Part shown: piece by piece, positions 4,940-18,106 of the stretch
How the letters are laid out: each line of letters starts with the position of its first letter
Position numbering within the stretch: the stretch's first letter is position 1
Assembly: GCA_018064925.1 (NCBI GenBank)
Contig: JAGHUH010000008.1
Coordinates: forward strand, 1 to 48,872
Reading direction: 5' to 3'
DNA: 48,872 nt
From: Candidatus Cacconaster stercorequi
Lineage (GTDB): Bacteria; Bacillota; Clostridia; Oscillospirales; Oscillospiraceae
Notes under the pieces: generated by a model
Database searches by the model: none
What the model was told of the DNA's origin: nothing
What the model saw: only the letters and a program-made list of their open reading frames with translations
Position numbers and translations under genes: made by a program

Positions 4940-5554
4940 CTATTCTCCGTTTGCTTTCGTCCGCTCTTTTATCCAACCGTCTAAAAACTGCATCTGTTCA
5001 TCGGTATGAAACCAATGCTCTCCGTTTTCCATTACGGTCACTTTGGCGCAGTGCTCCCCGGCAAAATGACGGATCGTATCAAAGGATTGTAAATGATCCT
5101 GGTCTCCGTACAATATTTCAGTTGGAATATTCCACCGAACCGGATGATTCCTTACCCAGCTAAGATAATCCCAGGATAACACTTCGCCAAAGGAAGTTTC
5201 AATCGTCTTTTTCTCTTGCAGTTCCCTTTCGGTCACATTTGCCCAGATCATCATATCAGAAATCAGCTTTTCCATATTCACAATGGGAGATATGAAGAAT
5301 GCTTTCCTGATTGGTTTCTCTCCCAAAGCGCACAGCGCAAAATATGCCCCAATGCTGTTTGCAATCAGATAAACGGCATCATAACCGTCTGATACGGTAT
5401 CAAAAAATGCCTGAAATTCCTTTACCGCACCCCACGGTGTTTTCGCTTGATAGCCAAAGCCTACCACGGTCGCATCCGGAAAAAGCGGGGCATAGTGCTC
5501 TGCTTCTGCGGCCGAACCGCCTTTTCCGTGTAGGTAAATGACAAGTGTTTTCAT
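4940..5554 (-). CDS. Small alpha/beta hydrolase
   Basis: 204 residues with an alpha/beta hydrolase plan: first strand VIYLHGKGG with the oxyanion-type HG, a nucleophile elbow ANSIGAYFA (serine, with Asn replacing the usual first Gly), a late acid in YGDQDHL, and a histidine in GEHWFHT near the end. There is no signal peptide, so it is cytoplasmic. Family members are esterases or lipases of broad specificity, and the substrate cannot be read from the sequence. The ATG at 5554 follows GAGGAGG closely. A TTG start 16 codons upstream is possible. The gene stands between the LRR gene and clostripain on the same strand. Confidence 0.75.
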   Translation of the reverse strand: MKTLVIYLHGKGGSAAEAEHYAPLFPDATVVGFGYQAKTPWGAVKEFQAFFDTVSDGYDAVYLIANSIGAYFALCALGEKPIRKAFFISPIVNMEKLISDMMIWANVTERELQEKKTIETSFGEVLSWDYLSWVRNHPVRWNIPTEILYGDQDHLQSFDTIRHFAGEHCAKVTVMENGEHWFHTDEQMQFLDGWIKERTKANGE

Positions 5555-7325: not shown

Positions 7326-7502
7326 TTCAGCACCTCATTTTTCGTTCTCCTGATCGATCAAGCAACGCTGCTGCCTCGGCTCCGTATCCTTCCGGTAGTT
7401 ATTATCATACAAACTGTATCATATCTTTTTCCAAATTTCAATATTTGACGCGGATGACATACGCCATGCTGACTCCTTTTGTCCGCACAAAGGATTCTGT
7501 TT

Positions 7503-7591
7503 GGGGTAAACCGCTGCTTTCAGGCATAAGAAAAAGCCTGTAACCCTTGCGGTTACAGACTTTTTTACTGGCGCAGTGGGAGGGATTTGAA
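7503..7591. repeat. Left attachment repeat (attL side), 89 bp
   Basis: This 89-bp block matches 17949-18037 with no gaps and 11 mismatches. The last 24 bp (7568-7591, CTGGCGCAGTGGGAGGG...) are identical to the 3' end of tRNA-Ser on the right and are the likely crossover core. The block also contains a GGGGTAAAC motif and a tRNA-style terminator hairpin (7531-7566). Confidence 0.85.
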
Positions 7592-7689
7592 TTGCCCTTT
7601 TTGTGTTTCATGCTGTAAAAGAATGTAGTGTTTTCAATGGTTTCCGCGTTTGCGCTGTTCTATGTTGTAATATGCTGTAAAAGCTGTTT

Positions 7690-7710
7690 GGGGTAAAAAT
7701 TGGGGTCAAA
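7690..7710. repeat. Left arm-type GGGGTMAAA repeats
   Basis: Two tandem copies (GGGGTAAAA at 7690, GGGGTCAAAA at 7702), 12 bp apart, lie just inside the left end. The same motif is found four times just inside the right end and once at 7503. Such clustered short repeats near att sites are usually integrase arm-binding sites. Confidence 0.5.
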
Positions 7711-7735
7711 ATATTTCCATTTGTTTCCACATAAC

Positions 7736-7773
7736 AAAGCCCGGCGGAGGCTTTCACCACCCGCCGGGGCTTT
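7736..7773. terminator. Bidirectional terminator hairpin at the island's left end
   Basis: AAAGCCCGGCGG pairs with CCGCCGGGGCTTT and is flanked by T-rich sequence on the right and AACA on the left. It lies 19 bases past the end of the leftmost island gene and would stop the minus-strand operon. Confidence 0.75.
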
Positions 7774-7791
7774 CTTTCGTGGTTGTTGGAC

Positions 7792-7962
7792 TTATCTGCT
7801 TGACCGCTTTGCGCCATAAAAGCTGATGATCGTTTTTTTGTATGAACCGGTGTATACCATATCTTTCGCGTAAGTAAGAATTTTCTCCCTCCCTTCGGCA
7901 TTAAGGGAACGGTAAGAAAAAAGCAAGTCTTTTTCGTCTTTCGTCATAATAGCATTATCCAT
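7792..7962 (-). CDS. Small hypothetical protein (56 aa)
   Basis: This is the last gene of the leftmost island operon. The sequence contains YRSLNAEGREKILTYAKDM, a helical motif often found at the C-terminus of small Firmicutes phage and XRE-type regulators, but no DNA-binding domain is present here. The start at 7962 has AGAAGG upstream. It lies 14 bases after the 84-residue gene. Function is unknown. Confidence 0.6.
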   Translation of the reverse strand: MDNAIMTKDEKDLLFSYRSLNAEGREKILTYAKDMVYTGSYKKTIISFYGAKRSSR

Positions 7963-7976
7963 CTTGTTACCTTCTC

Positions 7977-8231
7977 TCATTTGGCTGATACCTTGTGCTT
8001 TGTCCGTTCTTCCCTGCGTCCGGCCAGATAACCGGCTGTCCAGATCGCGCTGACCATGCGGAAGAATTCCCACCGCCCGTCCTGTATGTCGTCATTGTAC
8101 CAGTACAGAGCGCCGTTCTTCTCACAGGCACGTTCCGCGATCCGTATAGCCGGGAGGAGATCATCCACACCACGGAAGCCTGCGATCCGTTCCGCTTCCT
8201 CTGCGATAACGTCAAAGCTCCGATCCATCAT
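7977..8231 (-). CDS. Hypothetical island protein (84 aa)
   Basis: Acidic, probably helical, with aromatic patches (ALYWYNDD, RWEFFRMVSAIWTAGY) and a basic tail. No family recognised. AAGGAGG lies eight bases before the ATG at 8231, which overlaps the stop of the upstream 73-residue gene by 4 bases, so these genes are translationally coupled. It is one of five small consecutive genes at the island's left end, where satellites commonly keep accessory or interference genes. Confidence 0.6.
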   Translation of the reverse strand: MMDRSFDVIAEEAERIAGFRGVDDLLPAIRIAERACEKNGALYWYNDDIQDGRWEFFRMVSAIWTAGYLAGRREERTKHKVSAK

Positions 8232-8449
8232 AACAAATGCCTCCTTAGCGCGGGAAGCTCTCCCTCCAGCAGGCCGGAATATTCGGCAAAAATTTTGCGC
8301 ATTCCCCTGCGAAGAACCGGTGGCATTTTTCGATACCCGGCCAGCATAACAAGAAGTTTCTCCTCGTCGGTCATGCGCTGCATGATAATTTCAAGTCGTT
8401 CAACTTCTGCTAAGCTGTACGGCTCCTTTTCCACAAAATCAACGATCAT
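8228..8449 (-). CDS. Hypothetical island protein (73 aa)
   Basis: A small helical protein; MTDEEKLLVMLAGYRKM resembles the regulator-associated helices of Firmicutes phage genes. Its ATG at 8449 overlaps the stop of the upstream zinc-ribbon gene and its own stop overlaps the next start, giving a tightly coupled operon. No function can be assigned. Confidence 0.6.
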   Translation of the reverse strand: MIVDFVEKEPYSLAEVERLEIIMQRMTDEEKLLVMLAGYRKMPPVLRRGMRKIFAEYSGLLEGELPALRRHLL

Positions 8450-8787
8450 GCGATTTTCCTCCTTGCTTTTTCTGTGCTGGGGTGGTACGCTTTATGTGCC
8501 GTCCCTCGCTTGTGGTTGGTACGGTGCGCCGCTTGTACAAGGCTTTTCCGGGCTGTACAGGCGGCTTTTCTTTCTGCCATCAAATGACACGCCCACGACG
8601 CTGAGAGCGTCACAGCGGCCACACAGAGAGCGGGAACGATGCTCAGCGCCTCCAAAAGGCCGTCAGCGGCCAGAGCCAGCGACACCAGCAGCAGAAAGCC
8701 GGCGGTTTCCCATCCGCTGCGGCAATCGCATTGCTCTCCCGGATCGAGGTGCGCCCCGCAATAGGGGCAGGTACGATAATACGCCAT
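8446..8787 (-). CDS. Zinc-ribbon membrane protein (113 aa)
   Basis: The N-terminus holds CPYCGAHLDPGEQCDC (residues 7-22), a four-cysteine zinc ribbon. It is followed by two adjacent hydrophobic segments (about residues 28-70, in two blocks) and a basic tail. The protein probably sits in the cytoplasmic membrane with the ribbon and tail inside. Similar short proteins occur in Firmicutes mobile elements without known function. GGAGG lies just before the start at 8787. It follows the 116-residue gene by 13 bases. Confidence 0.65.
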   Translation of the reverse strand: MAYYRTCPYCGAHLDPGEQCDCRSGWETAGFLLLVSLALAADGLLEALSIVPALCVAAVTLSASWACHLMAERKAACTARKSLVQAAHRTNHKRGTAHKAYHPSTEKARRKIA

Positions 8788-8800
8788 GTTTTCCTCCTTT

Positions 8801-9151
8801 TCAGTTTTCGGTGGTGTAATTACCCTCGGAAGGTGTGTTGTGTGGTTCTGCCTGACGTGTACGTCTGTTTTCTTGCATAGATTTGAGCATTTCGCGCTTT
8901 GCTTGCTTCTGTTCTTCTGTAAGCGGTGCAGCGTCCCTTGGTTTATTGATCCTCACCCATGATTTGGGGATGGTATAGGTCACTGACCGCCCATCGGCTG
9001 AGAGCTTCTCCAGGCGGCATTCCTCCGGGCGTTCCTGTGCCAGCTTCTCCAGCTTGCGGCGCATGGCACCATTGAAGGTGTAAACGCTGGCTTCCCTCTT
9101 CTCCTCGTTGAAGTTGATGATGGTCTCCATCTCGTAGCGTGTTAAATCCAT
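8801..9151 (-). CDS. Mobile-element protein of unknown function (116 aa)
   Basis: The protein opens with a TRYEMETIINFNEEK stretch and a beta-rich core (ASVYTFNGAMRRKLEKLA ... SVTYTIPKSWV), followed by a charged, probably disordered tail. Related proteins are common in Firmicutes phages and conjugative elements and are usually called hypothetical. It is the first gene of the five-gene minus-strand operon. GGAGG precedes the ATG at 9151. A TATAAT on the minus strand at 9295-9290 lies in the shared divergent promoter region. Confidence 0.65.
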   Translation of the reverse strand: MDLTRYEMETIINFNEEKREASVYTFNGAMRRKLEKLAQERPEECRLEKLSADGRSVTYTIPKSWVRINKPRDAAPLTEEQKQAKREMLKSMQENRRTRQAEPHNTPSEGNYTTEN

Positions 9152-9289
9152 TCGCTTCCTCCTTTTCAGTTTTCAAGGTTCCGGCGGGAGCGGATCGGCG
9201 TCTGGAATGTATTGAGCACCCGCGGGGCGTTTCACCAGTATGTCCGCCGATCTCTTGTGGCTTGTTTAAGGCCGCTCCCTTTGTCTGGT

Positions 9290-9398
9290 ATTATAATAGC
9301 ATATCTGCGCAGATATATCAATTGTGAGCAATTACATATTTACACAGATATATTTGTACAGTTTATCTATATACACAGATAGACAAGTGTGCTATAAT
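9290..9398. promoter_or_regulatory. Divergent promoter region with CAGATA operator cluster
   Basis: A minus-strand TATAAT (9295-9290) and a plus-strand TATAAT (9393-9398) face outward. Between them are a perfect 16-bp palindrome (ATATCTGCGCAGATAT, 9301-9316) and further CAGATA half-sites at 9345-9350 and 9376-9381, with an inverted TATCTA at 9364-9369. The RHH protein encoded immediately to the right is the obvious candidate ligand; this is inference. Confidence 0.5.
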
Positions 9399-9454
9399 AA
9401 TGACAAGGTGGAAAAGATGCACCTGCATAAACCGCGACACCAATGGAGGAAACT

Positions 9455-9646
9455 ATGACAGTATCAAAAGCACAGCAGAAAGCGGTAAACAAGTATATGG
9501 CCGCAAATTATGACCGCGTAAACGTCACCATGCCAAAAGGCAAGAAAGACACGATCCGCGCCCATGCGGAAACCCAGGGCGAAAGCGTGAATAGCTTTAT
9601 CAACCGAGCGATTGATGAAACCATACAGCGGGATAAAAGCGAATAA
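9455..9646 (+). CDS. Ribbon-helix-helix (Arc/MetJ-type) regulator (63 aa)
   Basis: A basic N-terminus and the strand DRVNVTMPKGKKD lead into two helices (DTIRAHAETQGE, SVNSFINRAIDETIQR). This is the ribbon-helix-helix plan of small Arc-type DNA-binding dimers common on plasmids and phages. The start at 9455 is preferred because GGAGG lies five bases upstream; a start four codons earlier would overlap that site. It is the only plus-strand gene in the left half of the island and is closed by the hairpin at 9663-9698. It probably represses its own and the divergent operon's promoter through the CAGATA repeats. Confidence 0.75.
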   Translation: MTVSKAQQKAVNKYMAANYDRVNVTMPKGKKDTIRAHAETQGESVNSFINRAIDETIQRDKSE

Positions 9647-9662
9647 GCCAGCACACAATAAT

Positions 9663-9698
9663 AAAGCACCCGGACAGGTCATCCCGTCCGGGTGCTTT
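9663..9698. terminator. Bidirectional terminator between the RHH and ArpU-like genes
   Basis: AAAGCACCCGGAC pairs perfectly with GTCCGGGTGCTTT around a 10-base loop, with A's before and T's after. It sits 16 bases after the RHH stop codon. The 210 bases that follow, up to the ArpU-like gene end at 9910, hold no gene I can support. Confidence 0.85.
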
Positions 9699-9909
9699 AT
9701 TTGCTGTCGGTTTAATCGGCTCTCCGGCGGGTGTGCCTGTCCCCGCATCTCTTTATAACCGCCTTCCGGCGGTGTGTGGCGACACTTAATCTCCACCTCG
9801 AAGAGCTAATTATCATTGTAGACCATACCGTTGCGTCCGTCAAGAGAGCACCCGCACGCATGGCAAGTGCCATATTCTCCTCCAAATCCCCAAGCGCTTG
9901 GGATTTTCA

Positions 9910-10191
9910 TCAATAGTCAATCGGACCGAACATGGAAATTGTCAGCTTGCGTAGCGCCTCATTTTGCAAGCGGTAAACGGTACGCAAATTGCAATTCAGT
10001 TTTCGGGCTACCGTGGAGGAAAAACCCGCGTCACGGTCAATATAATGCCGCCAGATCACTTCAAATTCTTCCGGTGTAAGTACAGCAAGCGACCGCTCCA
10101 CGACCGCTGCCTGCCACGCGCCGGCGGTGCACAGCCTCTTGTAATCGTTCAGCCGGTCAATGGTTTGCTGGATATAGTAGTCAATCGGCAT
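9910..10191 (-). CDS. ArpU/sigma-region-4-like regulator (93 aa)
   Basis: 93 residues made of an N-terminal helical part and a C-terminal helix-turn-helix (FEVIWRHYIDRDAG, VARKLNCNLRTVYRLQNEALRKL), as in phage ArpU-type late activators or an isolated sigma region 4. No region 2 is present, so it cannot act alone as a sigma factor. The start at 10191 lies inside the end of the sigma gene (11-bp overlap), implying coupled translation. It may bind DNA as an activator or work with the sigma factor upstream; that pairing is inference. Confidence 0.65.
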   Translation of the reverse strand: MPIDYYIQQTIDRLNDYKRLCTAGAWQAAVVERSLAVLTPEEFEVIWRHYIDRDAGFSSTVARKLNCNLRTVYRLQNEALRKLTISMFGPIDY

Positions 10192-10957
10192 GGTATTTCT
10201 CCCGTATCTGTGCGTATTGCTCCATGATTTCCCTGTGTTTTTCCTCCAACAGCAAATACCGCTCCTCCACGCTCTGGCCGGACTGCTGCCACACTGAAAA
10301 GCCGGTATGGGTGTAGTAGTTAAACGGCATGAAGTCCCGGAGCTTCTTGCTGTGCGGTGACTTCCGAATGCTGTTCATACCGCTGCGGCACAGCTCATGA
10401 ACACGCTGGGGCGTTACGCCCATTTCTGCGGCAATGTCCTTCTGGTGCTTCCCATGGTAGTACCGGTCACGAATGGCCGCTTCCTGCTGGGGAAGAAGGT
10501 CATGCAGGGCGTTGTCCAGCGCCTCATGGAGCTGCTCACTCCATAGCCTTTCCTCAAGCTCGATAAAATCCTGCTCACCGCTTCCGGGTATCATATCCCC
10601 GACGGTAGCCCCGCCGGGATCGTCAGCAGATAAGGGAGCGTCCAGAGACGCGGCACCGTTCAGCGGATCACGCACCCGGCGGCGCACCCCGTAAGCCTCA
10701 CAGAACGCCGTTTTGATGTAGAAGGTCAACCATGTAAGGAAACCGCCAGTCGCCGGGTCAAATGTCTGTACGGCTCTCACAACGGCGATATAGCCGGTGT
10801 TTATGAGGTCGTCCAGCTCCACGCCGCACCGCCCGTCAAAAGCGTGATACCAGCGCAAGGCCAACTTTGCCGCCCAGCCCCGCACCTGCTCCCAGAGCAC
10901 CGGCGTGAGATCGTCCCGGCCTTGCCGGATCAATACGGCCAGTTCTTCATTGCTCAT
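10181..10957 (-). CDS. Sigma-70 family RNA polymerase sigma factor (258 aa), island-encoded
   Basis: Region 2 is clear (ELDDLINTGYIAVVRAVQTFDP, then GGFLTWLTFYIKTAFCEA), with the core-binding and -10-recognition helices. Region 4 follows at about residues 145-190 (LLPQQEAAIRDRYYHGKHQKD, MGVTPQRVHELCRSGM). A helical tail of about 65 residues follows region 4. This is a small phage-type sigma factor that would direct host RNA polymerase to special promoters. ATG 10957 has GGGAGG six bases upstream; a GTG two codons earlier sits on that site. A TGACAATGTCA palindrome lies 17 bases upstream of the start. Confidence 0.8.
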   Translation of the reverse strand: MSNEELAVLIRQGRDDLTPVLWEQVRGWAAKLALRWYHAFDGRCGVELDDLINTGYIAVVRAVQTFDPATGGFLTWLTFYIKTAFCEAYGVRRRVRDPLNGAASLDAPLSADDPGGATVGDMIPGSGEQDFIELEERLWSEQLHEALDNALHDLLPQQEAAIRDRYYHGKHQKDIAAEMGVTPQRVHELCRSGMNSIRKSPHSKKLRDFMPFNYYTHTGFSVWQQSGQSVEERYLLLEEKHREIMEQYAQIREKYHAD

Positions 10958-10973
10958 GCTCACCTCCCGCGCG

Positions 10974-10984
10974 TGACAATGTCA
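10974..10984. promoter_or_regulatory. TGACAATGTCA palindrome, copy 1
   Basis: TGACA-A-TGTCA, preceded by CGCG, lies directly upstream of the sigma gene's ribosome binding site. The same 14-15 bases recur at 11108, 12166 and 12197. Confidence 0.5.
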
Positions 10985-11107
10985 AAAAACCTATTTCCCG
11001 TTGCAATTTTCCGCTATGTGTGGTAACGTGATACTTGAGGAGCGCTCCTGGACCCCTTTTTTGGTCTGGGCTCAACGCTTCTCATTTTTTACGCCCACGC
11101 ACCCGCG

Positions 11108-11118
11108 TGACAATGTCA
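11108..11118. promoter_or_regulatory. TGACAATGTCA palindrome, copy 2
   Basis: The second copy, again preceded by CGCG, lies between the cold-shock gene end and the sigma gene. A perfect AGGAGCGCTCCT palindrome is found nearby at 11038-11049. Confidence 0.5.
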
Positions 11119-11193
11119 CGGTATCGAATAAGGCCCCCGGTATCGTCAACCGTTCAACGCCACGGCACCTACACCGGTGGCCTGTTCAGCTAT

Positions 11194-11412
11194 TTACAGC
11201 ACCTTGACATCCACAGCCTTTACCTTTGCGTCGCCGGTCTCGCGATCAACGAAAACACGCTTGTTAAACTGGCAGGTCGTGTCTTTTTTCAGAATGCGGG
11301 GATCATGATCTCCTACCACATCGGAGATATGAAAGAAAATGTCTTTTCCATCCTCAGCCGCGATAAAACCAAATCCACGATCACCCTTGTAAAACTTGAT
11401 TTTGCCAAACAT
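11194..11412 (-). CDS. Cold-shock domain protein (72 aa), island-encoded
   Basis: A single cold-shock domain. RNP1-type KGDRGFGFI lies at residues 9-17 and RNP2-type IFFHISDV at about residues 25-32, as in CspA/B RNA chaperones, though the C-terminal half is more divergent than housekeeping Csps. It would bind single-stranded RNA or DNA in the cytoplasm. The ATG at 11412 is preceded by a GGGGG-type site. It lies 16 bases after the 230-residue gene on the same strand, probably in the same operon. Csp genes occur on phages, where a role in antitermination or replication is possible. Confidence 0.75.
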   Translation of the reverse strand: MFGKIKFYKGDRGFGFIAAEDGKDIFFHISDVVGDHDPRILKKDTTCQFNKRVFVDRETGDAKVKAVDVKVL

Positions 11413-11428
11413 TGCAGAAGCCCCCTTT

Positions 11429-12121
11429 TTAGTGGTTTACTCTGTTCCAGGGCTTTTCAGCAGTCTTTCTCACGCCATGCAGCACCTCATTGTTTGCACC
11501 AGACAGATCTACATAGTCAGTAAACCGGCGGGACAGCTCCACCCCCATATCATCCGCGAATTTCTCCACGCTTCCGGCAAATCTGGCCACATTGGAAAAA
11601 CCGCGTTCCGGGTCACGGATCACAGAATAACTCTCTGCGTTCAGGTTGCTGATCCGCGCCTCCACATCGAAAATCAACCCCCTGAAAATCAGATCAGCGT
11701 TACCGCTTGCTTTCTCAAAGGCAGCGTAAAGAAGCTCAAGGATTGTTTTCTGCCCCTTGTACGGGCGCACCATCTCAGATCGGACAGAAGCCGGAATGCT
11801 GCCCTCAAGCTGGTCAACGATGGACAGGACGCGGTATACATCGTCTGTGATCTCTGCGCTGCCACTGATAGCATCGGCGGCTTCACTGATTTTCTCGATC
11901 TGAGCGCGGACGGCCTCGCCATACTGGGACACAGCGCCATTGAGTTTTTCGACCTCTACGCCAATCCGCTTGTTTTTCTCCTCCTGAATGTACGGCATGG
12001 CATCCACGGCCTTTGCTGCATCTGCAAAAGCAGAAGATGAGCCATACCACTTTTTCAGGGTTCCGAAAATGTTCTGGCAAGCTGCGTCGATTGCCTTTCT
12101 GTTTGTCTCGATAGTGTTCAT
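11429..12121 (-). CDS. Hypothetical helical island protein (230 aa)
   Basis: Almost entirely helical, with long amphipathic stretches (EEKNKRIGVEVEKLNGAV, GEAVRAQIEKISEAADAI) suggesting a coiled coil; no membrane segment, zinc site or enzyme motif. No family recognised. The start at 12121 is chosen because AAAGGAGA lies seven bases upstream; an in-frame extension upstream would cover the two TGACAATGTC motifs. A structural or host-interference role is possible but not shown. Confidence 0.65.
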   Translation of the reverse strand: MNTIETNRKAIDAACQNIFGTLKKWYGSSSAFADAAKAVDAMPYIQEEKNKRIGVEVEKLNGAVSQYGEAVRAQIEKISEAADAISGSAEITDDVYRVLSIVDQLEGSIPASVRSEMVRPYKGQKTILELLYAAFEKASGNADLIFRGLIFDVEARISNLNAESYSVIRDPERGFSNVARFAGSVEKFADDMGVELSRRFTDYVDLSGANNEVLHGVRKTAEKPWNRVNH

Positions 12122-12165
12122 AAAAAATCTCCTTTTGAAAAAAATTATTGTTTCCTTCATGCGCG

Positions 12166-12176
12166 TGACAATGTCC
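12166..12176. promoter_or_regulatory. TGACAATGTCC palindrome, copy 3
   Basis: One mismatch in the last base; GCGCG precedes it. It lies 45 bases upstream of the 230-residue gene's start. Confidence 0.45.
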
Positions 12177-12196
12177 GAAAACCTCTCACCCGCGCG

Positions 12197-12207
12197 TGAC
12201 AATGTCA
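12197..12207. promoter_or_regulatory. TGACAATGTCA palindrome, copy 4
   Basis: It overlaps the stop codon of the 71-residue gene and is spaced 31 bp from copy 3, about three helical turns, so dimers on both sites would face the same way. Confidence 0.5.
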
Positions 12208-12420
12208 CGAAACTATGTTTTCTCTCTGTTCAATGTCCATCTTTTCCCGGCAAATCCGCCTGGCTTCTTTGATGTTTGAGGCAAAAGCAAGCGGGATGTA
12301 AGCGGGGCCTCCCTCCTCAAGAATGCGATTATTATTTTCCAGCATGTCCGGCACAGTCTCTACATGGAATGCACTCTGCTCCCGACAGTATTCAACCACA
12401 AAGACCGTCTTTGTCCCCAT
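12205..12420 (-). CDS. Small hypothetical protein (71 aa)
   Basis: It starts with a short beta-like stretch (TKTVFVVEYC) and ends in a charged helix (SNIKEARRICREKMDIEQ). Such a sandwich occurs in many phage proteins annotated only as hypothetical. GGGAGG lies six bases upstream of the ATG at 12420. It follows the 66-residue gene by 12 bases in the same operon. No function assigned. Confidence 0.6.
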   Translation of the reverse strand: MGTKTVFVVEYCREQSAFHVETVPDMLENNNRILEEGGPAYIPLAFASNIKEARRICREKMDIEQRENIVS

Positions 12421-12432
12421 GAAAACCTCCCG

Positions 12433-12633
12433 TCAGGATTTGCTGTGGCGAATAGCCTCCAGCAGCACACAAGCAGCAGCGACAGCACAAGCACCTTTAC
12501 TGTCACAATTGGAACGAATGAACAGCATACATTCCGATCCGAGGCAATGCTCGTATTCGTATTCATTTTGTATCAGAGGGCAAACAGCAAACTCGTTCTT
12601 TTCCTCACCCGCCGGAATTTGTTTGATCTTCAT
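12433..12633 (-). CDS. Small cysteine-containing hypothetical protein (66 aa)
   Basis: Five cysteines (C18, C30, C35, C43, C49 approximately) are spread over a short protein (CLGSECMLFIRSNCDS), compatible with a metal site. No family recognised. AAGGAGG precedes the ATG at 12633. It is the first gene after the candidate origin region and probably heads the operon running to the cold-shock gene. Confidence 0.6.
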   Translation of the reverse strand: MKIKQIPAGEEKNEFAVCPLIQNEYEYEHCLGSECMLFIRSNCDSKGACAVAAACVLLEAIRHSKS

Positions 12634-12639
12634 TTAAGC

Positions 12640-12956
12640 CTCCTTAAGCTGTCTTGCTTGTCTCGAATTGTTTCTATACTATATACCCCTATATTATAAA
12701 AAACTTTTTTCGTTTTTCTTGATATATCCAATTTCCTGATTTTATACAAGACAAACAAGACAAAGTATAAAAAATATAGTGTTTGCAATGGTTTCCGCTG
12801 TCTTGTTTCTGTCTTGTTTTGTCTTGTATGTCTTGTTTAAGGCACGGCAGAAGGTGGGAAACGACTGGTTTTTGTCTTGTTTCCCGCCCTCTGTTCGTAA
12901 CATTGAAAAAATAATTATGTAAACTTCCAGTTTTTGGTGTCCGCTTTTTTGGACAG
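12640..12956. other. Candidate replication origin: GTCTTGT iterons beside an AT-rich stretch
   Basis: No gene fits here. GTCTTGT occurs in direct orientation at 12800, 12811, 12821, 12830 and 12874, and inverted at 12746-12752 and 12755-12761. The first four starts are 11, 10 and 9 bp apart, close to one DNA turn. An AT-rich tract (12675-12780) adjoins them. The region lies directly downstream of the primase/helicase genes, as in SaPI-type satellites whose Rep binds iterons next to its gene. The sequence 12777-12798 is repeated with one mismatch at 7626-7647 near the left end. Confidence 0.6.
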
Positions 12957-14456
12957 TTATTCGTGCATTACGGGGGGCGTCTTAGGCTGAAAATAGTAGG
13001 AGCGGCCGCCACCTGTGTCCCGCTGCTGCCTACATTCCAGATCAAGCAATGAGCAAATACGATTTGAAAATGTTTTTCGCTTCATTTCCGATCTAAATCC
13101 AGCCTCGCAGCAAAAAGCCCGGAAATCATTGAAAACAGTCTCCGTCCTCCGGTATACAATCAACTTGTCCTCATCGCCGCAGTAACGGACAAAGGCCGAT
13201 ACGGGGTCATTCAGTATCTTGTATTCATCCAGCAACTCCGCACTTTCTGACGGGATGCACACGCCATTCCCTTCTATGACACCACGCAGGCCACGCACAG
13301 CCAGAACAGCCAAATAATCAAGCTCCGCCTGTGTCCAGTTCTTGTCCTTTGCCTGCGGGCGGAAATCTTCATCAAGAGAAAAATTATGTTGAAGCGGTAC
13401 AATGACCATTCGTGACATAGCGCCGCCGGTGTGATCGCTCATGGTCGGCAACTCGTTGCAAGCAAAAATCATCTTGCAGAACGGCGTAAATGAAAACGGC
13501 TGGTCTCCTTTTCTCTCTCCGGTGATGGTACCTCCGGTGGTAATTGCCTTGAACATCGAGCTGTCAAACAAGTGACGCGCCGGGAGATCATCGCACAGGT
13601 TTGCAGCCTTGCCCACCAATTCCGCTACGCGGAAGCGGCCGCGCTCTCCGTCAAAATCTTGAATACTCATGGAGGAACAATTCCCAGGTCCAACAAACTG
13701 ACGGATCAGATTTAACAAACTGGATTTCCCGTTGCAGCCGCTTTCCCCGAACAAGAAAAACGCTGCCCTGTATCGGTTTTCACGGAAAAGTAAAAGCCCG
13801 ATCATCTGGTACAACAGCCGCACCACCCCGGCGGAGTGATCTGCCAGCCTGTCAAATGTCTGCGCCACGCTATCCGCCGGCGCCGTATCTGGATCATATC
13901 GAGCTGGAAAAACGGAAAGGAAGGTATCTTCCTGCATATATGGCCTGACACGATCCGGGCCGTTAAGATCAAGAACACCATTCGCAAACGGGATCAGTTC
14001 AGGCGGCGATAATTTACGCTCCGGCACCTCAGAAGATGCTTGCAGCCATGCCGCCACCTCTGCCCGGTTGCTTTTTGTGGAGTCCGGGCAGCGTTCCAGA
14101 ATGGCACCATTCAGCGCCGCAGCGTCTGGTACCCACACAAGGCCGCGCCGGGTATGTACTAAATTCCCGATCCGGCAAACAACACCGCAGTTGATCAGCT
14201 CACGGGCCATCTGTTCATGGAGAAAGCGCCCTGAAGTGTCACGGTATGGCCGCGCCGGTTTCGGCGCCGAAACCGCCTTTTCATAACCACGCAGCACCTT
14301 GTTAAAAGCTGTTTTTATTCCAAGCTGTCGGGCACGTTCTGTGGCAATAGCCGAAAGCCTCACGCGATCCAGCTCTGGGAGGTCGAATAGACCCAGGAAG
14401 AAATCTTCTGCCAGCAGTTCGCAAGCACTCATGGCTGAAATTGTACTATCCGTCAA
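12957..14456 (-). CDS. SF3/D5-type replicative helicase (Rep-like, 499 aa)
   Basis: The central and C-terminal parts match phage D5/primase-C-terminal helicases. Walker A is FGESGCNGKSS (about residues 236-246), Walker B NLCDDLP (about 286-292), and sensor motif C IFACNELP (about 330-337), followed by the arginine-finger region MSRMVIVPL. The N-terminal 140 residues lack a catalytic primase domain. It would unwind DNA at the origin as a hexamer. A TTG at 14456 preceded by GGAGGTG overlaps the CHC2 gene's end by 11 bp; an ATG eight codons further in is the alternative. Its stop lies next to the iteron region. Together with the CHC2 gene it forms a split primase-helicase. Confidence 0.85.
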   Translation of the reverse strand: MTDSTISAMSACELLAEDFFLGLFDLPELDRVRLSAIATERARQLGIKTAFNKVLRGYEKAVSAPKPARPYRDTSGRFLHEQMARELINCGVVCRIGNLVHTRRGLVWVPDAAALNGAILERCPDSTKSNRAEVAAWLQASSEVPERKLSPPELIPFANGVLDLNGPDRVRPYMQEDTFLSVFPARYDPDTAPADSVAQTFDRLADHSAGVVRLLYQMIGLLLFRENRYRAAFFLFGESGCNGKSSLLNLIRQFVGPGNCSSMSIQDFDGERGRFRVAELVGKAANLCDDLPARHLFDSSMFKAITTGGTITGERKGDQPFSFTPFCKMIFACNELPTMSDHTGGAMSRMVIVPLQHNFSLDEDFRPQAKDKNWTQAELDYLAVLAVRGLRGVIEGNGVCIPSESAELLDEYKILNDPVSAFVRYCGDEDKLIVYRRTETVFNDFRAFCCEAGFRSEMKRKTFSNRICSLLDLECRQQRDTGGGRSYYFQPKTPPVMHE

Positions 14457-14970
14457 GCTGCCTCACCTCCATTTCCGCAGCGGTCAGGCGATAACTCGCC
14501 GCCGGTAATCGTTTCATTGCCTCCGCTGCCTCGTCGGTCAGATTGTCCCCGGCATCAATAATGAGCTTGTCCAACCGCGTATATTCGTCAAGGGCGTTGA
14601 AATACGTCCGCTGTGCCTCCTCTCGCCGCTCCTGTTGGCGTTTCCGCTCACGCTCCGCCCGCTGTGCTGCCAGAGCTTCCCGCGCCGTCTGCGGCCTATC
14701 AATGGGCAAGCCGAGCTGAAAATCATTGTTCAACTTTGCCACAGCCGCCGGGAAAGACAGATCAAACAATCTCTTAACAAAGGCGATTGCATCCCCGCCG
14801 GCTCCGCAGCCGAAGCAATAAAAATGGTCTGGCCAAATGTGGCACGAGGCCGTTTTTTCGTCGTGGAACGGGCAGCAGCAGAAGCCGGCGCGGTTTACAT
14901 CGAAACCGTAAAACCGGGCAGCCTCCCGCAGATCAATAGCCCGGCGGATAGCATTGGTATCAATCTGCAT
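14446..14970 (-). CDS. CHC2 zinc-finger primase-like protein (174 aa)
   Basis: Residues about 15-80 form a CHC2 zinc-binding domain as in DnaG: C33-x2-H36 and C52-x2-C55 (CPFH ... YCFGCGAGG), followed by FVKRLFDLSFPAAVAKL. The remainder is a charged coiled-coil region; no TOPRIM catalytic domain is present. On its own it can recognise DNA but should not synthesise primers, so it probably works with the helicase encoded downstream or with host primase. It overlaps the wHTH gene by 11 bp upstream. Its ribosome binding site is weak (GGTGG), consistent with coupling. Confidence 0.85.
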   Translation of the reverse strand: MQIDTNAIRRAIDLREAARFYGFDVNRAGFCCCPFHDEKTASCHIWPDHFYCFGCGAGGDAIAFVKRLFDLSFPAAVAKLNNDFQLGLPIDRPQTAREALAAQRAERERKRQQERREEAQRTYFNALDEYTRLDKLIIDAGDNLTDEAAEAMKRLPAASYRLTAAEMEVRQLDG

Positions 14971-15400
14971 CGTTCCACCGCATTTCTTCCTGTCCGTTCA
15001 TCCGCCTGAGCGTATCGCCCACGGCGGCGCGGGTGGCGCGTACCTCGGCAAGGCGGCGATCCAGCGAGCGGGCGTAATGCTCCAGTTCCGCCGGGTCGTC
15101 GGCCAGATAATAGCCACGTTCCCCGCTGCATGAGGCGCAGATCGGCGCACCTGCCCGGCGGGCGCGGCTGATCTCCTTTGTCAGCTCCCGGAGATTATGC
15201 AAGCCCAGCAGCTTCACAAGCTCCCGGCCGGGTATCGCATTGGCCGCACCATGCAGCAAAACCAGCAAAAGCCGTTGACCACAGCCGCCGGGCGTGGTAT
15301 GATCGTTGTCAGAGGAAAAAGCGGTCTGTTCAGTCACTTTTTCTCCCGCCTGTCTCAGTGTTGCCGCACTGGGGCAGGCTTTTTCTTTTGATTTGCTCAT
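14960..15400 (-). CDS. Winged-helix-like phage protein (146 aa)
   Basis: After a polar N-terminus of about 45 residues there is a winged-helix-like region (RLLLVLLHGAANAIPGRELVKLLGL, LRELTKEISRARRAG), a CASCSGERGYYLADD loop and a long C-terminal helix rich in Arg and Glu. Proteins of this layout accompany primase genes in many Firmicutes prophages and are thought to bind DNA. The start at 15400 has GGAGG upstream, and its ATGA overlaps the excisionase stop. Confidence 0.6.
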   Translation of the reverse strand: MSKSKEKACPSAATLRQAGEKVTEQTAFSSDNDHTTPGGCGQRLLLVLLHGAANAIPGRELVKLLGLHNLRELTKEISRARRAGAPICASCSGERGYYLADDPAELEHYARSLDRRLAEVRATRAAVGDTLRRMNGQEEMRWNDAD

Positions 15401-15582
15401 TGTGCGCCTCCGTACTTTTTCAACCATGCCGTGAACTCGTCCACCAGTACGCGGGTGCATCCTCCCAAATGCAGCACCGGGAAGCCGTCCAACTTCGCCC
15501 ACCGGTAAATGGTGGGACGCGATACACCTGCCATTTGTGCGGCCTGCGCCATCGAAACGGCAATGGGTCTGATCTCTGCCAT
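15397..15582 (-). CDS. AlpA/excisionase-type HTH protein (61 aa)
   Basis: A MerR-like winged helix-turn-helix fills the protein: VSMAQAAQMAGVSRPTIYRW (residues 9-28), then GFPVLHLGGCTRVLVDEFTAWL. This is the standard excisionase/AlpA fold used by phages and satellites for recombination directionality or activation. AAAGGAGAG precedes the ATG at 15582, which directly follows the Cro-like gene's stop. In PICIs of Gram-negative hosts AlpA turns on the island; here excision together with the integrase is the likeliest role. Confidence 0.8.
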   Translation of the reverse strand: MAEIRPIAVSMAQAAQMAGVSRPTIYRWAKLDGFPVLHLGGCTRVLVDEFTAWLKKYGGAQ

Positions 15583-15762
15583 TTAGTCACTCTCCTTTGC
15601 AAGTTTCTGGATAATTTCCTTAATTTTCCGCTTTTCTTCTGCGCCCAGCTCGTGCCGCAGCTTGCGGGACAAGCTGCAATCTGCGATCCCCAGCGCATCG
15701 GCCACTTGCCAAAGTTTAACGCCGGAATCAGCCGCCATAAATCGGATGTCCTGATTAGCCAT
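15583..15762 (-). CDS. Cro-like small HTH regulator (59 aa)
   Basis: A compact helix-turn-helix: FMAADSGVKLWQVADALGIA, then DCSLSRKLRHELG and a basic helix. The start at 15762 has AAAGGAGGG upstream and avoids a leader that would cover the control region. It is the first gene of the minus-strand replication operon, diverging from the XRE repressor gene across a 236-bp control region, as in a phage cro/cI switch. It probably represses the repressor promoter; that is inference from position. Confidence 0.7.
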   Translation of the reverse strand: MANQDIRFMAADSGVKLWQVADALGIADCSLSRKLRHELGAEEKRKIKEIIQKLAKESD

Positions 15763-15821
15763 ACAATTCCCTCCTTTGCAAAAATTGTTGTTGAGAGCAT
15801 TGTAGCACAAAACTCAGTTTA

Positions 15822-15840
15822 TTTCAACCTATAGTTGAAA
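15822..15840. promoter_or_regulatory. Perfect inverted repeat, candidate repressor operator
   Basis: TTTCAAC-CTATA-GTTGAAA, 60 bases upstream of the Cro-like gene, sits where the minus-strand promoter should be. It is the clearest symmetric site in the switch region and suits the XRE repressor. Nearby (about 15876-15905) ATTAA recurs three times with roughly 11-bp phasing. Confidence 0.55.
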
Positions 15841-15950
15841 AATAAATAAAATATAGCAAAGCATGGCCAAACGGTATTAAGCGTGATTAAACTGTATTAA
15901 ACGGGATATTACGGAATGTAATGCAAAAAATTAATATTTTGATGTTGTTG

Positions 15951-15979
15951 TTGACATTAGCGGTAAATCAGCGTATTAT
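15951..15979 (+). promoter_or_regulatory. Promoter of the XRE repressor gene
   Basis: TTGACA (15951-15956) and TATTAT (15974-15979) with a 17-bp spacer. The predicted start point lies almost at the ribosome binding site (GGAGG, 15986), so the leader is very short. Confidence 0.75.
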
Positions 15980-15998
15980 CTTATCGGAGGTGCAAGCT

Positions 15999-16529
15999 AT
16001 GAGCGATTTAACAATTTTTGCAAAAAATATAAAGAGGTTACGCGAAGAAAAAGGCATGACACTGAAAGAGCTTGCAGAAACTATCGGAGTATCTCCTCAG
16101 GCCGTTTCCGCATATCAGAAAGCAGGAACAGAAAACGGGAAGGCTCCAACGCTTGATAAGGCGATAGACCTCGCCTCTGCGCTTGGCGTGTCTATCGGAG
16201 AGCTTTGTGGATCAACTGGAGCTACAGAAGAAAAAACGCTTGGAGACATTGCCTTGCTGTTCGCGTATATGATGGAGCACTGGCTTTCTGCCCATGTAAT
16301 CAGTGTTCCTGGAAAGTGTACCGGGGGTCAATACAGTTTTTCAGAGTCCTATCCTGCATTAGCATTTTCACCAGATAGTGAAATAGGGAAATTTATAGTC
16401 GACTACTCAAAAATGAGAGACGTTAGAAACTCTGGCACAATAGACCAACAACTATTCGACAGATGGGTTGAGGGTACTATTTCACGTTTGAGTGGAATTA
16501 ACATCCAAACCGAAGACTTACCATTTTGA
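15999..16529 (+). CDS. XRE-family repressor (176 aa), CI/Stl-like
   Basis: Residues about 5-65 are an XRE helix-turn-helix (IKRLREEKGMTLKELAETIG, VSPQAVSAYQKAG), ending ALGVSIGELC. The C-terminal 100 residues are not a LexA-type protease domain (no Ser-Lys pair recognisable), so induction may be by a protein ligand rather than RecA, as for satellite Stl repressors. This is inference. The start at 15999 has GGAGG nine bases upstream and lies 20 bases after the -10. It is followed by integrase on the same strand. Confidence 0.78.
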   Translation: MSDLTIFAKNIKRLREEKGMTLKELAETIGVSPQAVSAYQKAGTENGKAPTLDKAIDLASALGVSIGELCGSTGATEEKTLGDIALLFAYMMEHWLSAHVISVPGKCTGGQYSFSESYPALAFSPDSEIGKFIVDYSKMRDVRNSGTIDQQLFDRWVEGTISRLSGINIQTEDLPF

Positions 16530-16692
16530 AAGCAAAATCCAAAACGTTTGTGATTTTCAAAAAGCGCATAAAAAAACCGCCCCGGCGCTACCAACACCGG
16601 GACGGTAAGCAGTACACCCAACCAACCACGAAAGGGATATTCTGCCCTTATAGGGTAGCATATTCCGCCGGAACTTACAAGGAGGAAATTTT

Positions 16693-17865
16693 ATGCCACG
16701 CAAAAACACACGCACAGCCGCCGGAGCTGGCAGCATCCGACAGAGGCCGGACGGACGATGGGAGGCGCGGATCACCGTTGGCAACGATCCAGGTACCGGC
16801 AAGCCCATCCGCCGGAGCATATACGGCTCCACGCAGGCAGCGGTCAGAAAACAGATGAACGCCATCATTCGCGAGATCGACAACGGCACATACCAAACTC
16901 CCAACAAGATCACCGTTTCACAGTGGATGGAGGAATGGATCACAGCCTTTTGCGCTAACCGGGTAAAGCCTACCACAATAGCCTCCTATCGCGCAGTGAT
17001 CAAAAATCATGTAAATCCGGCCATTGGTGCCATGGAGATACAGGCCGTTCGTGGGACGCACATACAGCGCATTTACAACACCATGACAGCCGCCGGATTA
17101 ACCGGGAAAACCGTCAAGAATGCCGGTGCCGTTCTCCACAAGGCTTTCAGCGTGGCACTGAAACAGGGCTTGATTGCTGCCAATCCCTGCGATGCTGCCG
17201 AACTGCCGAAAGTGATACAAAAGCCCATCAAACCGCTGACAGACGAAGAAATCCCACGTTTCCTTGCGGCCATTGACGAACACCCGTTCCGCAATGGGTA
17301 CGGCCTGTGTCTGTTCGCTGGTCTGCGTGAGGGCGAATGCCTGGGCTTATCATGGGATAGCGTGGACTTTGAAAACCGGCGGATCACCGTCGGCCAGCAG
17401 CTCCAGAAAAGCAAAACAGAAAGCGGACGGTACTACATCGCCACCTCCACCAAAAACGGCAAAACGCGGGTAATCGCCCCGCCGGAGATTGCCTTTGACT
17501 ATCTGCGAGACGAACGCCGCCGACAAGCCGAAAACAAACTGAGAGCAGGGAAAGCATGGAGTAATCCCGAAAACCTGTGCTTCACCACGGAAACAGGCCG
17601 GTATATCCTGCCGGAGATTTTCCGCCGGGCATACAAGAAGATCATGGCCGGTATTGGTCGCCCGGATGCTCGTGTGCATGATCTGCGCCACACCTGCGCC
17701 ACCGTCGCCATTGCGTCGGGATCAGACATCAAATCTGTGCAAGACCTCATGGGACACGCCACAGCCAGCTTTACACTGAATGTGTACGCGCACACCTCGG
17801 AGCGCATGAAGGAGGACACGGCCAGCCGAGTACAGGGCTATTATGACAACCTTAGAAAAGCATAG
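16693..17865 (+). CDS. int: Tyrosine recombinase / integrase (390 aa)
   Basis: An N-terminal AP2-like arm-binding domain (GSIRQRPDGRWEARITVG), a SAM-like core-binding domain (about residues 70-170) and a C-terminal catalytic domain. The catalytic set is complete: R212 (AGLREGE), likely K254, H329-x2-R332 (HDLRHT), H355 (LMGHA) and the nucleophile Y365 (NVYAH). It would integrate and excise the island at the tRNA-Ser 3' end, 150 bases away. GGAGG precedes the ATG at 16693. A GC-rich hairpin (about 16582-16606) lies between it and the repressor gene, which may limit read-through. Confidence 0.95.
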   Translation: MPRKNTRTAAGAGSIRQRPDGRWEARITVGNDPGTGKPIRRSIYGSTQAAVRKQMNAIIREIDNGTYQTPNKITVSQWMEEWITAFCANRVKPTTIASYRAVIKNHVNPAIGAMEIQAVRGTHIQRIYNTMTAAGLTGKTVKNAGAVLHKAFSVALKQGLIAANPCDAAELPKVIQKPIKPLTDEEIPRFLAAIDEHPFRNGYGLCLFAGLREGECLGLSWDSVDFENRRITVGQQLQKSKTESGRYYIATSTKNGKTRVIAPPEIAFDYLRDERRRQAENKLRAGKAWSNPENLCFTTETGRYILPEIFRRAYKKIMAGIGRPDARVHDLRHTCATVAIASGSDIKSVQDLMGHATASFTLNVYAHTSERMKEDTASRVQGYYDNLRKA

Positions 17866-17870
17866 ACAAA

Positions 17871-17906
17871 GACCCGGCGGATATGCTCTGCCGGGTCTCT
17901 CGTTTT
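17871..17906 (+). terminator. Terminator after integrase
   Basis: GACCCGGC and GCCGGGTC pair around an 11-base loop, followed by TCTCGTTTT, six bases past the integrase stop. Confidence 0.75.
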
Positions 17907-17957
17907 GGGGTAAAAATGGGGTATAAAAATCTGTTTGGGGTAAACTTAGGGGTAAAC
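17907..17957. repeat. Right arm-type GGGGTAAA repeats
   Basis: Four copies of GGGGTA(T)AA start at 17907, 17918, 17937 and 17949, all in the same orientation and inside the island's right end. They mirror the pair at 7690-7710 and are candidate integrase or Xis arm sites. Confidence 0.5.
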
Positions 17958-18037
17958 CGCTGCTTTTGGACACAAGAAAAAGCCTGTAACCATTGAGATT
18001 ACAGGCTTTTCGTCTGGCGCAGTGGGAGGGATTTGAA
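17949..18037. repeat. Right attachment repeat (attR side), 89 bp
   Basis: This ungapped match to 7503-7591 has 11 mismatches. The 24-bp identical core (18014-18037) is the 3' end of tRNA-Ser, so integration restores an intact tRNA gene. The part left of the core carries a terminator for the tRNA. Confidence 0.85.
17978..18010 (-). terminator. Terminator of tRNA-Ser
   Basis: AAAAGCCTGTAA pairs with TTACAGGCTTTT. Read on the minus strand the hairpin ends in TTTTTC, right after the tRNA 3' end. A sister hairpin with base changes lies at 7531-7566. Confidence 0.8.
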
Positions 18038-18106
18038 CCCTCGTGCCGCTTTTGACGACAACACGATTTCCAGTCGTGCTCGTTATGACCACTTCGATAC
18101 CACTGC
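18015..18106 (-). tRNA. tRNA-Ser(GGA)
   Basis: This 92-nt gene has acceptor stem GCAGTGG/CCACTGC, an encoded CCA, a long class II variable arm, a T-loop reading GGTTCAAATCC, and an anticodon loop CTGGAAA giving GGA. It reads serine UCC/UCU codons. Its 3' 24 bases are the integration core of the island. Confidence 0.95.

Follow-up and report, generated by a model that had tools for sequence, protein, structure and literature searches.

Published criteria for phage-inducible chromosomal islands (PICIs) include a gene order of integrase, master transcriptional regulator and replication module, orthologous genes exclusive to PICIs, and an attachment site that prophages never use (PMC6092414). Staphylococcus aureus pathogenicity islands (SaPIs) of the pac type encode their own terminase small subunit, TerS, for SaPI-specific pac sites (PMC10690885), the island EcCICFT073 carries two cosN sites that its inducing phage has in identical form (PMC6092414), and a Streptococcus island carries two putative cos sites (PMC13376191). 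Packaging of satellite P4 relies on cos sites and the terminase of P2 (PMC10690885), and the study of the phage-inducible chromosomal minimalist islands (PICMIs) was unable to locate either cos or pac sites in the helper genome (PMC10803314). In phage SPP1, pac overlaps a promoter, a ribosome site and, within gene 1, the region coding for the DNA-binding domain of TerS (PMC6316719). Here, we analysed a stretch of 48,872 nucleotides from Candidatus Cacconaster stercorequi (contig JAGHUH010000008.1; the window), which holds an island integrated at a tRNA-Ser gene. We propose that this island is probably a pac-type, TerS-less, PICI-like integrative satellite, which carries several copies of a helper packaging or TerS-binding site and would be packaged by the helper terminase.

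We observed four exact copies of a short sequence, motif 1 (CGCGTGACAATGTC), within 1.24 kb of the island, starting at 10970, 11104, 12162 and 12193. The copies occupy two intergenic gaps, upstream of a sigma factor gene and of an open reading frame (ORF) named orfJ. Leaving aside the island itself and its attachment-site repeat, the best listed match of the island in its own genome was 37 nt long and 95% identical (E = 3e-8 against the genome and 1.5e-9 against 40 kb of phage contigs). It falls within the TerS gene (terS) of C15, a 14.7-kb phage contig of the same genome. On C15, terS (phrog_606, 5.5e-14), terL for the large subunit (phrog_10250, 1.7e-11), a portal gene (phrog_533, 1e-76) and a minor head gene (phrog_581, 2e-69) are consecutive, and the contig also has a primase/helicase gene (phrog_8841, 1e-149) and a late regulator gene (phrog_36, 9e-26). 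At up to one mismatch, the 14-mer was found in the whole genome at just the four island copies and the C15 terS site. The copies are as follows, with scores from the matrix described below:
12162..12175, plus strand: motif 1 copy, score 42.6; the surrounding 12152-12188 shares 35/37 nt with C15 terS
12193..12206, plus strand: motif 1 copy, score 22.6; overlaps by 2 nt the end of the preceding gene, 12205-12420
11104..11117, plus strand: motif 1 copy, score 14.7
10970..10983, plus strand: motif 1 copy, score 20.2; just upstream of the likely ribosome site of the sigma gene

To characterize the phage side of this match, relatives of the C15 terS were collected by protein search (20 IMG/VR loci and, besides the own genome, 2 of 400 family genomes) and all 22 were codon-aligned to C15 terS. 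Compared with GAC ATY GTT ACG CGC ATG, seven were exact, five differed at one or two places and seven at three or four; whole-gene codon identity to C15 was only about 15-34%. The near-duplicates L106, L111 and L114 were then dropped, leaving 20 sequences with C15 included. In six-codon windows, the same-codon rate peaked at the motif, reaching 0.71 compared to a gene median of 0.43; across 300 codon shuffles, the highest window reached 0.673. Because this is the strongest synonymous-codon conservation in the gene, the stretch looks like a DNA element, beyond protein coding alone. It lies past the helix-turn-helix (HTH) stretch of TerS, the HTH being judged by eye. The exact 18-nt consensus was present in 35 IMG/VR contigs, in a terS relative in 31 and in unrelated genes in 4; six of the 31 overlap the protein-search set and the pattern preselects the motif, so these counts show place and not conservation. 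In the simplest model, we infer that motif 1 is a TerS-recognised, pac-type packaging element of the C15-type phage group. As in SPP1, where pac overlaps the TerS gene 1, the island-linked element lies inside terS.

Next, the sites were scored independently with a 30-nt matrix built from the terS sites of 17 other phages, omitting C15, the island, L106, L111 and L114, as well as L121 and L122, which are without the motif. On the 48.9-kb window, the five best sites were at 12152 (42.6), 12183 (22.6), 10960 (20.2), 17785 (16.0) and 11094 (14.7). All five are inside the island and four are the motif 1 copies; the training sites score 29-46 and the maximum in 20 dinucleotide shuffles of the window was 13.1. 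Among 37 loci besides the window (472 kb), scores above 13 were reached only in C15 (one site) and in L129, a Lachnospiraceae contig (four sites, 17-22). A second phage contig of the same genome, G000:C24 (L101, L102), has its own terS, terL and portal genes and a 2487-aa ORF, and no motif 1 site above 13. When the window was searched with a 12-mer, two mismatches being allowed, 10 matches appeared; shuffled sequences averaged 3.5, and 1/100 shuffles reached 10. With one mismatch allowed, ACGCGTRACRATGTC matched 73 of 375 family genomes (a set that includes the own genome), mostly once, and its backwards control likewise matched many; two or more matches within 10 kb were seen in the own genome alone, among the places listed.

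Several observations weigh against a packaging role. The long match involves one of the four copies, the others sharing a 14-17-nt core, and the copy at 10969 shares about 27/32 nt with that at 12161. Two copies are palindromic (CGTGACAATGTCACG) and operator-like, and the copies stand upstream of orfJ and the sigma gene. On the phage side, the exact consensus is found in just 7/22 terS, with L119, L121 and L122 differing at 6-9 places, and codon shuffling leaves sequence relatedness in, although other windows, equally related, score lower. With one mismatch allowed, the backwards-pattern control found matches in the own genome too, twice in the 14-mer scan and three times in the family-genome scan, and the fifth matrix site, at 17785 (16.0), falls within the integrase gene. 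Of the 37 loci, 27 hold relatives of the integrase or ribbon-helix-helix (RHH) protein, the helicase or the J gene, and none of these scores above 13; motif 1 sites are thus not an integrase-family trait. Finally, C15 stems from an 88%-complete assembly in 46 contigs and may be a mis-binned contig or a free phage.

Part of this evidence would suit the main alternative, in which the four sites are operators: TerS or another regulator of the helper would switch the orfJ and sigma operons, the island would thereby sense the late phase of the helper, and packaging would start elsewhere. All four copies are in gaps upstream of these genes, two of them palindromic, and the one at 10970 lies directly beside the probable ribosome site of the sigma gene; a cited title also states that the SPP1 terminase represses its own synthesis (PMC5615212). 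However, a phage regulator does not obviously need a site inside terS, and the listed phage sites are not palindromic. We consider operators without packaging unlikely, and the two roles can coexist, as operator function is compatible with packaging.

The sequence-only reading had described 10.4 kb with no capsid, terminase or relaxase gene, and the scans bore this out. Searches of 20 island ORF products against Pfam and PHROG gave no convincing capsid, portal, tail, lysis, terminase or relaxase assignment. Weak matches linked phrog_57, 'terminase small subunit', to the XRE (3e-4) and AlpA (3e-3) products and, for AlpA, phrog_5751, 'terminase large subunit' (6e-3), and Pfam Terminase_5 (0.013, below its cut-off); these were treated as probable generic HTH cross-hits. 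The RHH gene had a baseplate-type Pfam match with an E value of 0.076. In a tblastn search of the island with five TerS proteins and the C15 TerL, we found just the 23-codon motif stretch (E 0.006) and one match with E 0.09. Weak cross-hits aside, no structural or lytic phage gene was thus recognised among the 20 products, as expected of a PICI. The same scans showed none of the head, tail and lysis genes of an intact prophage, no own capsid, portal and terminase genes as in capsid-forming PICIs (cf-PICIs), no own terminase small subunit as in SaPI-type PICIs that bear terS, and no relaxase gene.

Decay of a prophage, with the 37 nt left over from its terS, is an improbable origin of the island. 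The match shares its reading frame with an upstream extension of orfJ (GERFSDIVTRMKE compared to ERFSDIITRMRE), as such a leftover could, but the four copies are not all in the same frame, tblastn detected no further terS or terL remnant, and relatives with the same integrase retain a similar small module. A relative with full structural genes in the same locus, which the sequence-only reading had named as the sign of such decay, was not seen among the selected genes scanned in the relatives, although one of them (L070) has a tape measure gene.

These relatives were found by comparing the island DNA to 400 family genomes, 148 of which had some match. The longest matches were to the integrase, at 64-67% DNA identity (G478, G072, G593, G532, G448, G755, G631, G670, G580 and others). 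The related integrases, 66-70% identical as proteins, head mosaic islands in which parts of a module of integrase, XRE, small HTH, alpA and phrog_2113 genes recur and the replication genes differ; some also keep the sigma factor and the RHH gene. In L065 and in L061, the latter cut by the contig end, the sigma-adjacent gene matches terminase small subunit PHROGs (2.5e-8 and 6.5e-6). These two integrase relatives, together with the terS element shared with a phage contig of the same genome, favour the satellite that the sequence-only reading had suspected. No capsid gene was recognised in the integrase-relative islands among the selected genes scanned. At L070:4369-7263 (G580:C74; integrase 68%), we found a gene for a 965-aa tail tape measure protein (phrog_58, 4e-60; TMP_3, 1e-30); this element is possibly a satellite that sets or disturbs tail length.

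No close relative of the helicase was found in genome_contigs, and distant ones were found in 8/60 relatives at E<=1e-3 and in 17/394 genomes of the order at E<=1e-20 (the own genome counted in both), at about 23-32% identity in the genomes searched. In viral_contigs, no close relatives of the helicase, orfJ or sigma genes were detected, and the integrase had four relatives only, at 24-26%. As for the new family that had been suggested, the islands form a mosaic group and no tight lineage: the helicase is without a close relative in the two collections scanned and has distant ones only. A plasmid home was rejected, with no DNA match in the plasmid collection and all helicase matches there below 60% identity.

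Three unannotated 6-11-kb 'Bacteriophage sp.' records, obtained from human faeces in Mexico, hold relatives (44-48%) of a gene that lies near terS in L061. A Mexican faecal virus-particle study exists (PMC8361208), in which no statement tying these accessions to it was seen. In each of three small viral contigs, L084 (MT836267), L085 (MT837364) and L089 (IMG/VR), a J-like gene lies within a few genes of a terS-like gene. L084, which is one of the Mexican records, further encodes an integrase, a primase and the large subunit of a terminase (Terminase_3, 2e-34), and L085 has a Phage_Gp15 tail gene; the 717-aa gene of L085 was considered as a tape measure protein and rejected for want of such a Pfam match. 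No portal or capsid gene was recognised in L084, L085 and L089 in the part of their genes scanned.

Many clostridial integrative mobilizable elements (IMEs) look similar to the island, being small, tRNA-borne and equipped with an RHH protein, and the island could be one of them, transferred by conjugation machinery acting in trans. A relaxase shown to mobilise the island would, by the sequence-only reading, overturn a satellite; with no relaxase in the Pfam and PHROG scans, and with a motif shared specifically with phages, we give this explanation little credence.

To find similar site arrays elsewhere, genome_contigs (84,980 species by its description) was scanned for paired sites, with four matches, L126-L129. 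L129 (CAMWNY010000093.1) has four terS-type sites, at 1423, 6164, 6202 and 6271, outside any terS found. Their flanks are terS-like, and no genes are assigned in the stretch that holds them, which is upstream of a Tn916-type integrase; elsewhere, the contig carries an XRE gene, a sigma factor gene and a G2P-type Rep gene. C15 terS matched L129 at the motif alone (E 0.57; 8.0 kb examined of an 8.5-kb contig fragment), and no phage with the exact L129 site form was found in viral_contigs. L126, L127 and L128 have palindromic CGTGACRATGTCACG repeats and no matrix site above 13, and these repeats may be unrelated to motif 1 of the island. On L126, a Spirochaetaceae contig, six palindromic CGTGACAATGTCACG copies lie at 2087-2285, and similar pairs occur in L127 and L128. 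The least probable explanation is chance or a common genomic repeat, CGTGACRATGTCACG being present in unrelated genomes: the palindromic pairs and arrays of L126, L127 and L128 and the isolated matches, one mismatch being allowed, in many family genomes, as for the backwards control, would fit it, but the 37-nt match, the matrix scores (no site above 13 in L126-L128) and four exact copies within 1.24 kb do not.

The boundaries of the island were confirmed as 24-bp direct repeats at a tRNA 3' end, with exact cores and a tRNA-Ser(GGA) called by ARAGORN:
7568..7591, no strand: attL core, 24 nt, identical to 18014-18037 and within a 92-nt repeat of 87% identity
18014..18037, no strand: attR core at the 3' end of tRNA-Ser(GGA), exact 24-nt repeat
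18015..18106, minus strand: tRNA-Ser(GGA), the integration site
The 10.4 kb between these cores are slightly less than the 12-15 kb of a typical PICI. The longer direct repeat (7500-7591 and 17946-18037) implies that the right end of the island restores the end of the tRNA together with the hairpin-like sequence that follows it. The G+C content is 0.514 in the island, compared to 0.555 in the remaining window and 0.507 in C15. No clean empty site was found, and in the relatives read the left-flank genes are not beside the tRNA. In a genus relative, G007 (L212, G007:C26), a different integrase, 48% identical, adjoins the same tRNA-Ser, so that this site may be an integration hot spot.

From the right end, the integrase and XRE genes are on the plus strand, followed by the divergent HTH-like, AlpA, phrog_2113, CHC2 and superfamily 3 (SF3) genes:
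16693..17865, plus strand: tyrosine integrase (Pfam Phage_integrase, 3e-22; DNA relatives 64-67%, protein relatives 66-70%)
15999..16529, plus strand: XRE-family repressor candidate (HTH_3, 5e-15; full-length 37% relative in L059)
15583..15810, minus strand: small HTH-like ('Cro-like') gene (phrog_17740, 2e-13; beside alpA in relatives, up to 73% in L061)
15397..15582, minus strand: AlpA/excisionase-like HTH_17 gene (HTH_17, 2e-9; phrog_66 excisionase, 6e-9)
14960..15502, minus strand: conserved gene, no assigned function (phrog_2113, 3e-11; relatives in 7/12 integrase-positive loci among L059-L070)
14446..14970, minus strand: CHC2 zinc-finger primase part (Zn_ribbon_DnaG, 2e-17)
12957..14456, minus strand: SF3/D5 helicase (DUF5906, 8e-20; D5_N, 1e-5; phrog_864, 1e-87)
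12634..12956, no strand: putative replication origin, iteron region (8 TGTCTTG/CAAGACA; includes a copy of a second motif, motif 2, at 12777-12795)
The Pfam matches uphold the tyrosine integrase, the CHC2 primase and the SF3 helicase of the sequence-only reading. Its XRE repressor diverging from Cro-like and AlpA-like genes is correct as to XRE, AlpA and the divergence; the 'Cro-like' product had no Pfam match and hit an unnamed PHROG only. The iteron region was recovered as well: all eight island copies of TGTCTTG/CAAGACA, out of 11 in the window, fall in 12634-12956, and we infer that this region is the replication origin.

Taken together with the site array, these genes suggest how a satellite of this kind could work. 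Growth of a C15-type phage would relieve the XRE repressor, AlpA and the integrase would excise the island, and the CHC2 and SF3 proteins would replicate it from the iteron region. TerS and TerL of the helper would then start headful packaging at the island site array, where multiple copies may offset the missing terS by higher TerS occupancy. A phage could in this way come to package the island in place of its own DNA.

Leftward of the SF3 helicase gene, the non-coding stretch with the eight iterons is followed by small ORFs, orfJ, the cold-shock, sigma-70-type, region-4-like and RHH genes, and accessory ORFs:
12433..12633, minus strand: small Cys-rich ORF, no family above cut-off
12205..12420, minus strand: small phage-type gene (phrog_6104, 1e-10)
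11429..12121, minus strand: orfJ, ~230 aa, no family; AlphaFold model helical but unusable (pLDDT 39)
11194..11412, minus strand: cold-shock domain protein (CSD, 1.6e-9)
10181..10957, minus strand: sigma-70-type factor (sigma70-ECF superfamily, 2e-19; relatives in L061, L065 and L068)
9910..10191, minus strand: sigma region-4-like gene of late-regulator type (phrog_1558, 1.7e-8; phrog_36, 1e-4)
9443..9646, plus strand: Arc/RHH protein (phrog_13890, 1.6e-20; relatives 53-81%)
8801..9151, minus strand: conserved accessory gene (phrog_1709, 6e-9; relatives 31-68%)
7977..8787, minus strand: three small accessory ORFs (8446-8787, 8228-8449 and 7977-8231), no family above cut-off
The two sigma-70-like genes, the cold-shock gene and the four-copy motif 1 are additions to the sequence-only reading. 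A search of 300 family genomes with orfJ gave three weak matches besides its own, the best at E 2.5e-4. Membership of orfJ in the J-like family that lies near terS in relatives was not supported (hhalign probability 0.9%, E 0.063 compared to 0.12 for a control protein). A defence role was discarded, PADLOC on 10 proteins having returned one marginal match, orfJ with E 0.005.

The island and C15 also have a second sequence in common, motif 2 (TAGTGTTTTCAATGGTTTC; L100:5094-5117 on C15). One island copy lies near attL:
7626..7649, plus strand: motif 2 copy, 23/24 nt identical to C15
Another, at 12777-12795 among the iterons, shares 18/19 nt with C15. The C15 copy at 5094-5117 sits in a gap that holds GTGGGAC-type repeats, as seen by eye. 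With two mismatches allowed, the own genome has motif 2 on C15, at three places in the island and at two on contig C1. As a trait of the helper group it was not supported: 4/30 records had it at up to three mismatches, and the places examined disagree.

How the island is to be classed depends on the comparison with described satellites. The sequence-only reading held that its gene order defines a PICI. The island has this order, which is not PICI-defining alone, since published criteria also require helper induction and packaging into particles; that the island works like a PICI is accordingly better supported than its membership in PICIs proper. With cos-type PICIs (EcCICFT073; SaPIbov4/5), likened by gene content, it shares the integrase, the regulator, a Pri-Rep/ori module, the lack of structural genes, a candidate helper packaging signal and the presumed use of the helper terminase. 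It differs in that the signal is an element from inside terS, in four copies and with no cos, and in that no capsid-redirecting gene was recognised. Pac-type SaPIs have the same module order, headful-type packaging would apply to both, and the relatives L061 and L065 have a terS-like gene; SaPIs, however, have their own TerS, whereas the island, without a terS found, copies the site of a phage terS. The Vibrio PICMIs resemble it in a small gene set, AlpA, a primase, no terS and the headful-like packaging presumed for the island, and differ in host group and attachment site. P4-type satellites have primase-helicase replication and tRNA integration, as in the island, but no sid-, psu- or delta-type gene was named in the island scans.

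Among the open-licence PubMed Central papers that our searches brought up, as far as they were read, we found none that describes a TerS-less satellite with a site array derived from terS. More tentatively, and with slightly less than even confidence, we suggest a class of pac-type satellites, devoid of TerS, which would exploit headful phages by means of a multi-copy terS element. The class would have arisen more than once, as L129, with its different integrase, may indicate, and its array would double as a helper sensor for late operons. In conclusion, testing synonymous sites within terS brings out a candidate packaging element of a phage group, and that element in turn points towards a satellite. 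The C15-type phage and the island form a directly testable candidate helper-satellite pair, and they suggest that satellites have a third way of being packaged, in addition to 'own TerS plus own pac' and 'helper cos'.

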